Of a DNA stretch of 64,000 bases, positions 1-6,811 are shown in pieces. Where the stretch lies: contig JABABK010000007.1 of assembly GCA_014238285.1 (NCBI GenBank), forward strand, positions 1-64,000, read 5' to 3'. This stretch comes from Hellea sp. Lineage in GTDB: Bacteria > Pseudomonadota > Alphaproteobacteria > Caulobacterales > Maricaulaceae. The notes beneath the pieces are model-generated. The model did no database searches and had not been told where the DNA came from. It saw only the letters and a list, made by a program, of their open reading frames with translations. How positions within the stretch are numbered: the first letter of the stretch is position 1; the number at the start of each line of letters is the position of its first letter. Both the position numbers and the translations under genes were made by a program.

Positions 1-311
1 TAGAACGTTGACCCGCTAGATTTTCCAGCTGCGGCCCATTTTTCAAACCGCTCGCGGGTGGCTGCATCATCCAGTGTGTTTTTGCCAAGATAGACGCCGC
101 CCGGACCCGTCATTGCATCTGGGGCTACCATGACATTGCCGGTTAAGATAAGACCGGGCGCGCCTTCGGCCCAGCGGCTATAGAGATTGATCAAAGCCGC
201 GCCGGGAACCTGTCCATATTCAGCCATATTTTCTTCCATGGCAGCTTTGGATATCCGGTTTTTTAAAGTGTTACCTGAGGCGAGTTTTAGAGGTGAAAAT
301 AGATCGGTCAT
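1..311 (-). CDS. NADH:flavin oxidoreductase / old yellow enzyme family, N-terminal part only; runs off the left edge
   Basis: Reverse-complement translation is open from ATG at 311: MTDLFSPLKLASGNTLKNRISKAAMEENMAEYGQVPGAALINLYSRWAEGAPGLILTGNVMVAPDAMTGPGGVYLGKNTLDDAATRERFEKWAAAGKSSGSTF. Typical OYE N-terminus. Not in the ORF track because it is truncated by the window. Confidence 0.85.
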   Translation of the reverse strand, partial: MTDLFSPLKLASGNTLKNRISKAAMEENMAEYGQVPGAALINLYSRWAEGAPGLILTGNVMVAPDAMTGPGGVYLGKNTLDDAATRERFEKWAAAGKSSGSTF

Positions 312-448
312 ATATAGTTCCTAATTTTTCAAAACTATAAAGAAAAGTTACCTTCGATGCCAGTTCAATGATGAAAGTCTTATTGTTAAATTTGCATGAT
401 TTCTGGATCATGAATTGACTCGAGACTTAGTTAATTTAAACCGCATCC

Positions 449-1768
449 ATGGCAAATCTACTACAAACAAAATACTGGCCCCATATTGATGGTCTTCGTG
501 CCTTTGCCGTTATGGCGGTTTTGTTTTTTCATTTTAAGACACCTGGTTTTTCTGATGGTTATCTAGGCGTTGATATTTTTTTTGTTATAAGTGGATTTTT
601 GGTTAGCCGACTGATCCTGAAAGACATTGAAGAATTTGAAAAAGTTAGGTTTGGTCGGTTTTTTGCTCGCCGGATAAGGCGACTATTCCCGACTCTGGCG
701 GCTGTCTGCGTGGTAACGGCGATTATTGCTTATGGTCTACTCGATAATGAACGGCTGACCGCATTTGGTAAGTCAGTCGGCGCCGCAATTATTTCCTTGT
801 CGAATATAAATTTTTGGAGTGAGTCAGGTTATTTTGATACGGGCAGTGATACTAAACCTTTGCTTCACACATGGTCTTTGAGCGTCGAGGAACAATTTTA
901 TCTATTTTGGCCTGCTGCAAAAATGTTCACAGATGCCCGCGCCCTCAAAGCCGATGAAGTCAAAGCCATGATCACCCGTTTTGCCGATACGGCCGAAGCG
1001 GCAAAATCAGCCGGATTTGACGGTGTACAAATCCACGCCGCTCACGGTTATCTTGTGGCGCAATTTCTGTCACCTCTATCCAATTTGCGAGAGGACGAAT
1101 GGGGCGGCAGCCTAGAAAACCGTGCACGCTTCCTGCTCGAGATCGTGCGCGCCGTGCGCGAACGCACCGGAAAGAAATTCGGACTGGCAGTCAAACTCAA
1201 CTCAGCCGATTTCCAGCGCGGCGGGTTTGATGTCGACGACGCCAAACAAGTCGTTAAATGGCTCAATAAAGAAAGCGTCGATTTTGTTGAACTGTCTGGC
1301 GGGTCCTATGAAAGCGCGGCCATGGCCGGTGCGGCGGAGGAAGATAATCCTTCCTCAACTATGCTGCGGGAAATTTACTTTATCGAATTTGCCAAAGAGA
1401 TCGAAAAAATAGCCAAAATGCCGCTCATGGTAACCGGCGGTATTACCAAACGCGAAACAGCTGAAATGGCCATGGAAAGCGGCGCCGTCGAAATTGTCGG
1501 CATTGCCCGCGCCTATGGCTATAATCCGTATATTGCGCGCGACTGGGCAGCAGGTCAAAATACAGACGTACGATTGCCAGAGGTCAAATCCAAAAATAAA
1601 ACGTTCAAAGTTCTGGCCACTATGGGCATGACCAAAGCCAATCTTTACACAATGGGTGAAGGCGGAATGCCAAAGGCCAAGCGAAGCCCGCTCATAGCCG
1701 TTATCCGCGGACAAATGAAGCAGGCCAAGCTAACCAAGCAATATCGTAAATGGCTTGATCAAGCTTAG
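449..1768 (+). CDS. Chimeric ORF: acyltransferase-3 (OafA-like) N-terminus (about 449-917) fused in frame to old yellow enzyme C-terminal part (about 918-1768)
   Basis: N-half: HIDGLRAFAV, GVDIFFVISGFLVSRLIL, HTWSLSVEEQFYLFWP (acyltransferase-3 motifs). C-half: AKSAGFDGVQIHAAHGYLVAQFLSPLSNLREDEWGGSLENRARFLLEIV, GGITKRETAEMAMESGAVEIVGIARA (OYE TIM barrel). Confidence 0.85.
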   Translation: MANLLQTKYWPHIDGLRAFAVMAVLFFHFKTPGFSDGYLGVDIFFVISGFLVSRLILKDIEEFEKVRFGRFFARRIRRLFPTLAAVCVVTAIIAYGLLDNERLTAFGKSVGAAIISLSNINFWSESGYFDTGSDTKPLLHTWSLSVEEQFYLFWPAAKMFTDARALKADEVKAMITRFADTAEAAKSAGFDGVQIHAAHGYLVAQFLSPLSNLREDEWGGSLENRARFLLEIVRAVRERTGKKFGLAVKLNSADFQRGGFDVDDAKQVVKWLNKESVDFVELSGGSYESAAMAGAAEEDNPSSTMLREIYFIEFAKEIEKIAKMPLMVTGGITKRETAEMAMESGAVEIVGIARAYGYNPYIARDWAAGQNTDVRLPEVKSKNKTFKVLATMGMTKANLYTMGEGGMPKAKRSPLIAVIRGQMKQAKLTKQYRKWLDQA

Positions 1769-1790
1769 GCAATAGCAACAAGGTAAGTAT

Positions 1791-2888
1791 ATGAAACGCG
1801 CTTTTAAAGTTCTCGGAATCACAGTCCTACTGCTGGCGGCTTATCTATTATTTTGGCCAGTTCCTCTTGATCCCGTAGCTTGGAACGCGCCCGAAGATAA
1901 AGGCTATGTCGGAGACTTCGCCCCCAACACAAAGCTTGCAAATCTAGAGCTGCTCGATATTGGCGATATTCACGGCCCGGAAGATGTTGCCAGCCGCGAA
2001 ATCGACGGGGAGCTTTATCTATTTGTATCCTCACAAGACGGTCTCATTCGTCAGATTAATGCAGCGAGCGGCGATGTAACCACATTTGCTGATACAGGCG
2101 GCGTTCCTCTTGGGCTCGAATTTGATACAGATAATAATCTAATCATCGCAGATGCCTTTGAAGGGCTCTTGTCTGTCACACCTGATGGTACTGTCACAAC
2201 CCTTACCAATAATATTAACGGATCACCTATCCTTTATGCCGATGATCTTGATATTGACCCCAAAGGGATCATCTATTTTTCTGATGCCAGTGTAAATTTC
2301 GGCGCTAAGGCAGCCGGACAAACCATGAAGGGAAGCCTGCTTGAAATTATGGAACATGGGCGGACAGGGCGAGTTCTTGCCTATAATCCGAAAACCCAAA
2401 AAACCACACTGATCATGGATAATCTGTCCTTTTCAAACGGCGTTGCCATGGGTCCTAAAGGCAAAAGCATATTGGTCAATGAAACAGGTGAATATCGCGT
2501 TCACCGCATCTGGGTTAAAGGCCCTAAAAAAGGTCAGTCTAAAGTCATCATCGATAACCTCCCCGGTTTTCCTGATAATATAAACCAAGCCCCCAATGGT
2601 GATTATTTTGTCGGCCTAGTTTCAAGACGAGCTAAAATGCTGGATGATATGTCAGCCTCCCCTTTCATGCGAAAACTGGCCTGGCGCCTACCGGAGTTTA
2701 TGAAGCCTAAAGCCGTGGGTTATGGATTTATCATTCAAATGGATGCCGCTGGGCAGGTGAAACAAACCTGGCAGGATCCAAGCGGCGCCTATCCATTGAC
2801 GACAGGTGCCCATGCGCCTGGCGACGGCTTTCTTTATATTTCCAGTCTGGGCTCTGATAAACTTGGCCGGATGCCATTTAATCAATAA
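1791..2888 (+). CDS. SMP-30/gluconolactonase or strictosidine-synthase-like beta-propeller protein with N-terminal membrane anchor
   Basis: N-terminal hydrophobic segment; DLDIDPKGIIYFSDASVNFG and FSNGVAMGPKGKSILVNETGEYRVHRIWVKG are characteristic of this beta-propeller family. Confidence 0.75.
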   Translation: MKRAFKVLGITVLLLAAYLLFWPVPLDPVAWNAPEDKGYVGDFAPNTKLANLELLDIGDIHGPEDVASREIDGELYLFVSSQDGLIRQINAASGDVTTFADTGGVPLGLEFDTDNNLIIADAFEGLLSVTPDGTVTTLTNNINGSPILYADDLDIDPKGIIYFSDASVNFGAKAAGQTMKGSLLEIMEHGRTGRVLAYNPKTQKTTLIMDNLSFSNGVAMGPKGKSILVNETGEYRVHRIWVKGPKKGQSKVIIDNLPGFPDNINQAPNGDYFVGLVSRRAKMLDDMSASPFMRKLAWRLPEFMKPKAVGYGFIIQMDAAGQVKQTWQDPSGAYPLTTGAHAPGDGFLYISSLGSDKLGRMPFNQ

Positions 2889-2890
2889 TT

Positions 2891-3244
2891 ATGCAAAAAA
2901 CGGTCTATAAATTACTCTTATCCGCTGAATGGGAAACGCTAGAAACAGAAGACGTTTTCCTAGGAACACCACTAGACCTCAAGGATGGCTATGTCCACTT
3001 ATCCACCGCAGGCCAAGTGATCGAAACTGCGCGGTTACATTTCAACCACAAAGGCCCATTAGTATTAGTGGAGCTTGATGAATCAGATTTTGGAGACACC
3101 CTCAAATATGAACCGGCGCGTGACGGATCTCTATTTCCCCATCAATATGGCCTCCTAAAGCGCTCACAGATAAAACGGCATTGGCCCTTGAAAGAGACAG
3201 GCAATGGCACATATGAGTTTCCGGACGAATTTTATCAGGACTAA
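2891..3244 (+). CDS. DUF952 domain protein
   Basis: VYKLLLSAEWE...DGYVHLSTAGQVIETARLHF...LVELDE..LKYEPARDGSLFPHQYG pattern. Confidence 0.8.
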   Translation: MQKTVYKLLLSAEWETLETEDVFLGTPLDLKDGYVHLSTAGQVIETARLHFNHKGPLVLVELDESDFGDTLKYEPARDGSLFPHQYGLLKRSQIKRHWPLKETGNGTYEFPDEFYQD

Positions 3245-3265
3245 ACATCCTAACAGGAACTAGAC

Positions 3266-4327
3266 ATGGGCTTTATTTATAAAACAGCGACGAAGTTGAT
3301 GCGGACATTACCGGCTGAAACAGCCCACCGCGCGACGATTAACGCGCTTAAAACCGGTCTTGGGCCTGTCGCGCTTAAAAAACCTGACCCAATACTTGCG
3401 ACAAATGTCGGCGGCTTATTACTGCCTAATCCTGTCGGTCTTGCGCCCGGTTTTGACAAAGACGCAGAAGTTCCGGATGCTATGTTGGTTTCTGGCTTTG
3501 GTTTTGTTGAATGCGGAACGGTGACACCCATGCCGCAAATTGGTAATCCCAAGCCGCGCCTGTTTCGCCTGCCCGAAGACCGCGCTGTGATAAACCGGAT
3601 GGGCTTTAACAATGGCGGTCTGAACGCATTTAAAAAACGGCTTGAAGACCGTAGTGGCAAGCAAGGCATTGTCGGCGCTAACCTTGGCGCCAATAAAGAC
3701 AGCACAGACCGGGTTGGTGATTACGTCACCGGCCTATCCGCGCTCTGGGGCCTTGCTGATTATTTCACCATTAATATCAGCTCTCCCAACACGCCGGGTC
3801 TTCGGGATTTGCAGGCCTCAGATGCCATGGATGATTTACTCGGCCGCATTCAAGAAGCGCGCGCAAAACTCACCGGAGATCAACCTTCACCGCCGATATT
3901 CCTAAAGGTCGCCCCTGATCTTGATCATGCACAGGTCGAGCGCATCACCGAGCAAGCGCGGACTTACGGCATGAACGCCATCATCGTCTCAAACACGACG
4001 ATTGATCGTCCGGAATCTTTGAAAAGTTCCAACAAAAGCGAAGGCGGCGGACTATCCGGCGCGCCTCTATTCAAGAAGTCCACCCGTATGCTCAAAGAGT
4101 TCGCGGCAGCCGCTGATGGCCGGATTGACCTTATCGGCGTGGGCGGCATAAGTAGCGGCGGAGAAGCCTATGCTAAAATCCGCGCCGGCGCCAAAGCGGT
4201 TCAGCTTTATTCTGCCATGATTTATCAAGGCCCGGGGCTTGTTATGGATATTCGCAACGATCTAGTGCAGCGGCTTAAAGCTGACGGCTTTAATTCTGTT
4301 GAAGAAGCGGTTGGCAGCTCGGACTAG
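3266..4327 (+). CDS. pyrD: dihydroorotate dehydrogenase (quinone)
   Basis: LLPNPVGLAPGFDKDAEVPDAMLVSGFGFVECGTVTPMPQIGNPKPRLFRLPEDRAVINRMGFNNGG; INISSPNTPGLRDLQ; SGAPLF. Confidence 0.96.
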   Translation: MGFIYKTATKLMRTLPAETAHRATINALKTGLGPVALKKPDPILATNVGGLLLPNPVGLAPGFDKDAEVPDAMLVSGFGFVECGTVTPMPQIGNPKPRLFRLPEDRAVINRMGFNNGGLNAFKKRLEDRSGKQGIVGANLGANKDSTDRVGDYVTGLSALWGLADYFTINISSPNTPGLRDLQASDAMDDLLGRIQEARAKLTGDQPSPPIFLKVAPDLDHAQVERITEQARTYGMNAIIVSNTTIDRPESLKSSNKSEGGGLSGAPLFKKSTRMLKEFAAAADGRIDLIGVGGISSGGEAYAKIRAGAKAVQLYSAMIYQGPGLVMDIRNDLVQRLKADGFNSVEEAVGSSD

Positions 4328-4423
4328 CCCTTGTCAGAAAAGTCTGTAATTTTAGCAATCCATTAACCGGCAATTTACCCCTCTCATTCACTATCTATTA
4401 ACTAACGATGGAATGAGGGTCAC

Positions 4424-6811
4424 ATGCCGCCAGCTGCGAGCGCTAATTACGATACGGAATACGCCAATGCTCTGATGGAGGATTTGGACACGGCTCCGGG
4501 CCTATTTAAGCGCGCAATCACCGCCCTGGCTCTTATTGGATTTGGTTTTGCGGTCCTGGCTTCGGTTGTGACCTATAACCCTTTTGATACCACAAGTGAT
4601 ACCGCTGGTATCGGCTCTGTCCAAAATGCTCTTGGCAAAGGCGGAGCAGGTCTCGCTAATATTCTTATGCAATTTATGGGTTGGGGCGCGCTAATTGCTG
4701 GCCTCTTATCTTTAACCACGGGTGTTAAAGGTATCATTTGGCCACGCAAAACAGTTAAAAAATCCGAGAAATGGGGCTATCTATGCCTCGCCATTGGCAC
4801 AATTATTTTTGGAAGCGCGGCACTGTCCGGCTTCCCTATTCCGCAAAGCTGGCCCATGGCAACTGGGCTTGGGGGCTGGCTTGGTGATGGTATCTTCCTA
4901 AGCTTTAAAGGCGGGTTAGATCATTTTAACATTCCCGTTTCAGGATTTATTGCGGCATTTTTCACCTTTTTGATCGCAGCTTTTTGTTTCGCCAGGTTTG
5001 TCGGGATTGTCAGCAAAGACATTTTGGACATCTGGGAAGCGGTTTTGATGGTTTGGGCTACGATACGGGTTTGGTTTGATCGGTTTGCAGGTTGGATCAA
5101 AGAACGTTTCGCCAAAACTTACGGCGCCGAACTCGAGCAAAGCGACTCCATCGGCTCACTCTTGCGCAGAATTCCTGACGAGCCCGCGCCGCGCTCATCC
5201 TCCATCATGCCTTCCGTACAACCTGCCACAAAGCCCACGTCCGCTCAAAAAAGCTCCGCGCCCAAAAAACGAAAGCGCGTTACCAAGGTCAAAAAGCCTC
5301 AGTTTCATTTTCCCGAAGGCTCTGACTTTGTCCTGCCAGGGATTGATCTTTTGAAGACACCGCCGCCGCGTAAAAACACCCATGATGATATGGCGCTTCG
5401 CCGGGCCTCCGAAGACCTTCATAGGGTTATGGGTGACTACGGTATTAAAGGCGAAATGGGCGCGGTTCGGCCTGGTCCTGTGGTCACTTTGTTTGAATTT
5501 GAACCTGCCCCGGGCGTGAAATCCCAGCGCGTCATAAACCTTTCGGCTGATATTGCTCGGAATATGAGCGCCGAAAGTGCTCGTATCGCGGTTGTTCCAG
5601 GCCGTAACGCCATGGGCGTTGAGCTTCCCAATCGTCGCCGTGAAACCGTCTGGCTCAAAACTATGCTCGCCAGCGACGCCTATCTAAATACTGAGGCGGC
5701 GCTCCCCTTATTGATGGGTGAAGATATCGGCGGAATGCCTTTTATTGCCGACCTTTCAAAAATGCCCCATTTATTAGTCGCGGGTACAACGGGTTCAGGT
5801 AAGTCAGTTGGCATCAACGCCATGATCCTCTCGCTGATGTATAAACTGACACCAGATCAGTGTAAGTTCATCATGATCGACCCTAAAATGCTTGAGCTTT
5901 CCGTTTATGACGGCGCGCCGCATTTGCTCGCCCCTGTGGTTACCGAACCTAAAAAGGCTGTAGTAGCCCTGAAATGGACCGTGCGCGAAATGGAAGACCG
6001 TTATCGCAAAATGGCCAAAATGGGTGTCCGTAGCATGGCGGGCTATAATGAAAAAATCGCCGATGCCCAAGAACGAGGCGAGGTTATGACCCGCACCGTC
6101 ATGACGGGTTATGACAAAGAAAGCGGCGAGCCGACTTACGAAACCGAAGAATTAAATTTTGAGCTTATGCCATACATTGTCGTCATCATTGACGAAATGG
6201 CTGATTTGATGATGGTCGCGGGTAAAGACATAGAAGGAACTGTTCAGCGTCTTGCCCAAATGGCCCGAGCTGCCGGTATTCATTTGATCATGGCAACCCA
6301 GCGCCCATCCGTTGATGTCATTACAGGCACAATCAAAGCCAACTTCCCGACCCGCGTAGCCTTCCGGGTTGGTTCCTCAATCGATAGCCGTACTATTTTA
6401 GGTGAAACAGGCGCCGAGCAGCTTCTGGGCAATGGCGACATGCTCTATATGGGTACAGGGCGCCCGCGCAGACTGCACGGACCATTTATATCGGACGGCG
6501 AAGTCGAACAAATCGCAGCTTTTGTTAAAGCTCAAGGGTCACCAAGCTATCTCGAAGATATCACCGCTGAGCCTGAAGAAGCCATAAGCGGAGACACAAC
6601 AGGTGGGGAAGCCAATTCTTTATTTGATCAAGCTGTGGCAATTGTTTCCAAAGACCGTAAAGCCTCAACCAGCTATATCCAGCGCCGCCTATCGATCGGC
6701 TATAACCGCGCTGCTAATCTGATTGAGCAAATGGAACGCGAAGGCATGATCGGGCCATCTGGTCCCGGCGGTAAACGCGAAATCTTTCTACCGGAACATG
6801 GAGGATATTAA
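4424..6811 (+). CDS. ftsK: DNA translocase FtsK/SpoIIIE
   Basis: N-terminal TM segments, Walker A ([15 protein letters not shown]), [27 protein letters not shown]-terminal gamma domain. Confidence 0.96.

Follow-up and report, generated by a model that had tools for sequence, protein, structure and literature searches.

The window analysed here comprises bases 1-64000 of contig C146 (100,721 bases) in an assembly of Hellea sp. (168 contigs totalling 3.74 Mb; completeness 95.6%), and its base 1 is the end of that contig, so that the 2 kb further left are not part of the assembly. Contigs shorter than ~3 kb were read as N, and the assembly searches reported below cover the longer ones. The left end of the window carries an N-terminal fragment of an old yellow enzyme (OYE) gene on the minus strand, followed on the plus strand by a single 439-aa frame (449-1768) in which the N-terminal part of an acyltransferase is fused in frame to the C-terminal part of an OYE. 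Residues 13-161 of this frame match Acyl_transf_3 (PF01757; 7.7e-18) and residues 160-365 match profile positions 138-334 of Oxidored_FMN (PF00724; 2.2e-43). This layout had been proposed in a sequence-only reading of the same DNA, and the open reading frames and Pfam profiles agree with it. The features are:

3-311, minus strand: OYE N-terminus (NADH:flavin oxidoreductase), 103 aa, one piece of a single gene; the ORF runs 311->1 and is open at the contig end, window base 1
312-448, no strand: intergenic, between the divergent starts of the OYE and the acyltransferase
449-915, plus strand: acyltransferase-3/SGNH N-terminus, ~155 aa; the remainder is C93:56-1544
861-915, plus strand: 55 bases shared without mismatch with C93:1-55; here the assembly graph branches
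909-916, plus strand: probable chimeric junction, with a predicted microhomology of 4-7 bases (CCTGC, in the PA codons of both proteins)
916-1768, plus strand: OYE C-terminus, ~285 aa, same gene as the N piece (OYE match from about 911)
1791-4327, plus strand: run 3' of the OYE, encoding strictosidine synthase/SMP-30-like, DUF952 and dihydroorotate dehydrogenase proteins

One OYE gene in two pieces

When aligned with the 419-aa OYE ortholog of the relative G009, the N piece corresponds to residues 1-102 (78% identity) and the C piece to residues 133-417 (81% identity). Alignment with seven relatives reveals that the two pieces do not overlap and complement each other, with ~31 aa absent between them. 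In G009 the absent stretch reads YMQISHPGRQ...LNMEG, and 'PA' marks the junction; base 1 of the window cuts the gene just ahead of the conserved YMQISHPGRQ. A gap had indeed been foreseen from the letters of the window, but at 35-40 residues, a size that the G009 alignment brings down to ~31 aa. These 31 aa have no match in contigs longer than ~3 kb, which says nothing about their location since shorter contigs are masked.

Because the pieces are complementary, without overlap, against one ortholog, they belong to a single split gene and not to two paralogs. It is thus very improbable that one OYE paralog has been cut by the contig end while a second is fused to the acyltransferase, and we rejected this explanation. 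Other OYE-family genes do exist in the genome, but they are distant (29-35% identity), whereas both pieces are similarly close to the same ortholog; moreover, the acyltransferase carries on in another contig, C93 (see below).

The OYE is intact in several relatives, where it is the first gene of a similar run (strictosidine synthase-like, dihydroorotate dehydrogenase, FtsK). In relatives a 2OG-Fe(II) oxygenase gene lies between dnaK and the OYE. Here it is found on C100 (L041; 6871-7494) with other genes after it, indicating that the dnaK-OYE neighbourhood has been rearranged in this species. This neighbourhood was considered as the missing left flank of the window and discarded, the oxygenase on C100 being no longer beside the OYE. 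The same contig carries, at 4126-6797, two tandem genes flanking a 100-N scaffold gap; they encode ~400-aa proteins with signal-like N-termini and share ~79% DNA identity over 722 bases. Within the intergenic interval 312-448, a degenerate stretch (CAAATTTAA...TTCATCATTGAACTGGCAT) is similar to the sequence 5' of the OYE in the relatives G009 and G002. Since an OYE-upstream-like piece is retained there, the acyltransferase looks like a lineage-specific neighbour of the OYE.

A fork in the assembly graph

Comparison of window 1-2000 with its own genome yields one other match, bases 1-55 of C93, which are identical to window 861-915. The identity ends exactly at C93 base 55, beyond which C93 encodes, in frame, the acyltransferase C-terminus and an SGNH domain. 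Window 449-915 together with C93 gives a complete, stop-free acyltransferase-SGNH protein of 651 aa, whose alignment spans the joint in 78 fetched loci. In the readable contigs, the 55-mer at 861-915 has no second match besides the C93 end.

De Bruijn assemblers write adjoining paths with an overlap of exactly k bases. About 100 stretches, for the most part from the ends of contigs, were sampled; the remaining exact overlaps between contig ends (C6/C92, C103/C92 and C95 with itself) all measure 55 bases. As every exact contig-end overlap sampled has this length, k is 55 and window 861-915 is the branch point: a graph fork with two continuations, one into the acyltransferase (C93) and the other into the OYE (C146). 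The overlap at the contig end is exactly k bases, and the alternative branch restores the acyltransferase.

Two of the other overlaps belong to a set of three contigs:

C92 (L243), 295-389; C103 (L244), 1-55; C6 (L245), 1-55: element apparently in excised form and its chromosomal sides

An integrase and a NinB-family gene lie on C92, and its element appears to have been assembled in the excised form (attP), linked to each chromosomal side through 55 bases. The C92/C103/C6 forks have in common a 15-base core, TTCGAATCCTATCAT. Joining C103 to C6 through this core completes a tRNA-Pro(GGG) that contains it and that is not found in C92 or in C103+C92. This suggests that C92 represents an active prophage-like element. 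The fork looks like genuine site-specific recombination, and forks in this assembly are therefore not always artefacts. It must be noted that this element combines an integrase with a proper core and a pair of matching forks, and that nothing of the kind was seen at window 915. As for C95 (L246; 1-283), its first 55 bases recur at 229-283, within a gene with internal protein repeats (RQIALWGQSQRRIFSNRI); its start is a repeat collapse or a repeat-number variation at a contig end.

The acyltransferase-OYE fusion is absent from the relatives compared, and in none of them was an acyltransferase seen adjoining the OYE. The best-matching places in 41 genomes correspond to the OYE part or to the acyltransferase part of the fusion and not to its full length, the window itself excepted. 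In a few cases an alignment between the fused protein and another locus spans the joint; each such locus is an OYE or an acyltransferase match, and the extra stretch is presumably an extension of the alignment. The acyltransferase homologs of the genus relative G006 and of G009 lie near pyruvate dehydrogenase-like genes.

Origin of the join

The fusion at 915/916 is probably a false or one-sided inverted chimeric join, or a misassembly, and there is probably no biological switch at this locus; judging from the sequences and contig ends, we give this reading a probability of roughly 0.7. Most likely, then, the fused frame is not a real biological feature but two ordinary genes wrongly joined. 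Misassembly was one of three options left by the sequence-only reading, and the 55-base fork with C93, with its acyltransferase-completing branch, speaks for it.

The actual chromosome would have two intact divergent genes, the OYE and an acyltransferase that runs from window 449-915 on into C93, in the native order C93 (reverse) - acyltransferase - OYE - downstream run. A chimeric molecule may have formed when the acyltransferase strand became joined to the opposite OYE strand ~1 kb away, at a microhomology of 4-7 bases. Displaced 3' ends, as in multiple displacement amplification (MDA) and some library preparations, are a possible source. The joint falls at PA codons common to both proteins, TTTTGGCCTGC in the acyltransferase and (GGN)CCTGCT in the OYE. 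The OYE sequence leading up to the joint is missing, and the length of 4-7 bases is what these conserved codons predict. On reaching the fork at 861-915, the k=55 assembler would have taken the chimeric branch, and the true one would have become the first part of C93. Some 90 OYE bases would be left over, on a short piece that was filtered out or masked. C146 ends at base 1, ~90 bases before the junction is reached; a fork there that left a ~200-base edge below the length cut-off would fit. Such a chimera would presumably be absent from living cells. Were there no reciprocal junction, C93 should be unbroken just past its first 55 bases, as it is.

The chief alternative is that the ~1 kb inversion is real, that microhomology-mediated repair produced it and that the sampled population is polymorphic for it, with both orders present; it would break both genes in some cells and have no function. 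The fork means that both branches are present in the assembly graph, and a mixed state seems genuine elsewhere in this assembly (C92/C103/C6). In addition, inverting the segment restores both genes. The earlier claim that one OYE and one acyltransferase are broken, and that a ~1 kb inversion would mend them, is borne out by relatives in which an intact OYE ortholog comes first in a similar run and by the completion of the acyltransferase through the 55-base overlap with C93. However, a balanced inversion should create a second fork where C93 meets the middle of the OYE, and C93 passes without a break. The reciprocal OYE-N/acyltransferase-C fusion predicted earlier was not found in contigs above the ~3 kb limit, below which a short piece could be hidden; C93 is a straight acyltransferase. 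Two genes would, moreover, be disrupted at once. That the assembler preferred the chimeric branch implies some real read support for it. The branch being perhaps supported in this way, a genuine inversion carried by some of the population, though unlikely, keeps an appreciable minor share of the probability. The fuller version, in which a natural-population inversion creates the in-frame fusion at a microhomology and both orders are maintained, strikes us as distinctly doubtful.

Least probable of all is a programmed phase-variable inversion, in which a site-specific invertase would switch OYE and acyltransferase expression, as had also been suggested. Apart from the inverted layout itself, what favours it is the role at the cell surface that is expected for acyltransferase-SGNH proteins. 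Yet no inverted repeats of useful length were found at the breakpoints, where no shared word exceeds 6-8 bases or sits on the joint (relatives standing in for the missing OYE bases). Serine recombinases (PF00239) are absent from C146 and C93 and were found only on C163 and C86. No tyrosine recombinase (PF00589) is present on C93, and the only one on C146 is at C146:23416, 22 kb off. The breakpoints lie inside conserved coding sequence, and the relatives have neither the fusion nor an acyltransferase adjoining the OYE. A switch was rejected on the absence of a nearby recombinase and of any repeat longer than 8 bases near the breakpoints.

If the fusion at 915/916 is indeed a false or chimeric join, its message is mainly one of caution, since an in-frame 'fusion' gene close to the end of a draft contig may turn out to be an assembly fork. 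Checking for an overlap of exactly k bases with another contig's end is a quick test, by which such fusions can be prevented from entering protein databases.

Comparison with known systems

The locus resembles Hin/Mpi-type invertible switches in that both genes would be regained by inverting ~1 kb; unlike them, it has no useful inverted repeats and no nearby invertase. In geometry it resembles the inverted chimeras of MDA. Of the MDA chimeras sequenced in one study, 85% were inverted with an intervening deletion, and the joined segments tended to lie < 10 kb apart and were primed at short complementary stretches (BMC Biotechnol 2007, PMC1855051). Here too, nearby segments ~1 kb apart are joined in opposite orientation, apparently at a short complementarity; orientation and distance fit an MDA chimera, while the microhomology of 4-7 bases is an estimate from codons. 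Amplification of this sample is a conjecture, and chimeric molecules may have other sources. In contrast to de Bruijn branches caused by repeats, the fork occurs without a visible genomic repeat. Like a branch left unresolved by de Bruijn assembly at k=55, it joins a contig end to the interior of another contig through exactly k shared bases, after which the continuations differ.
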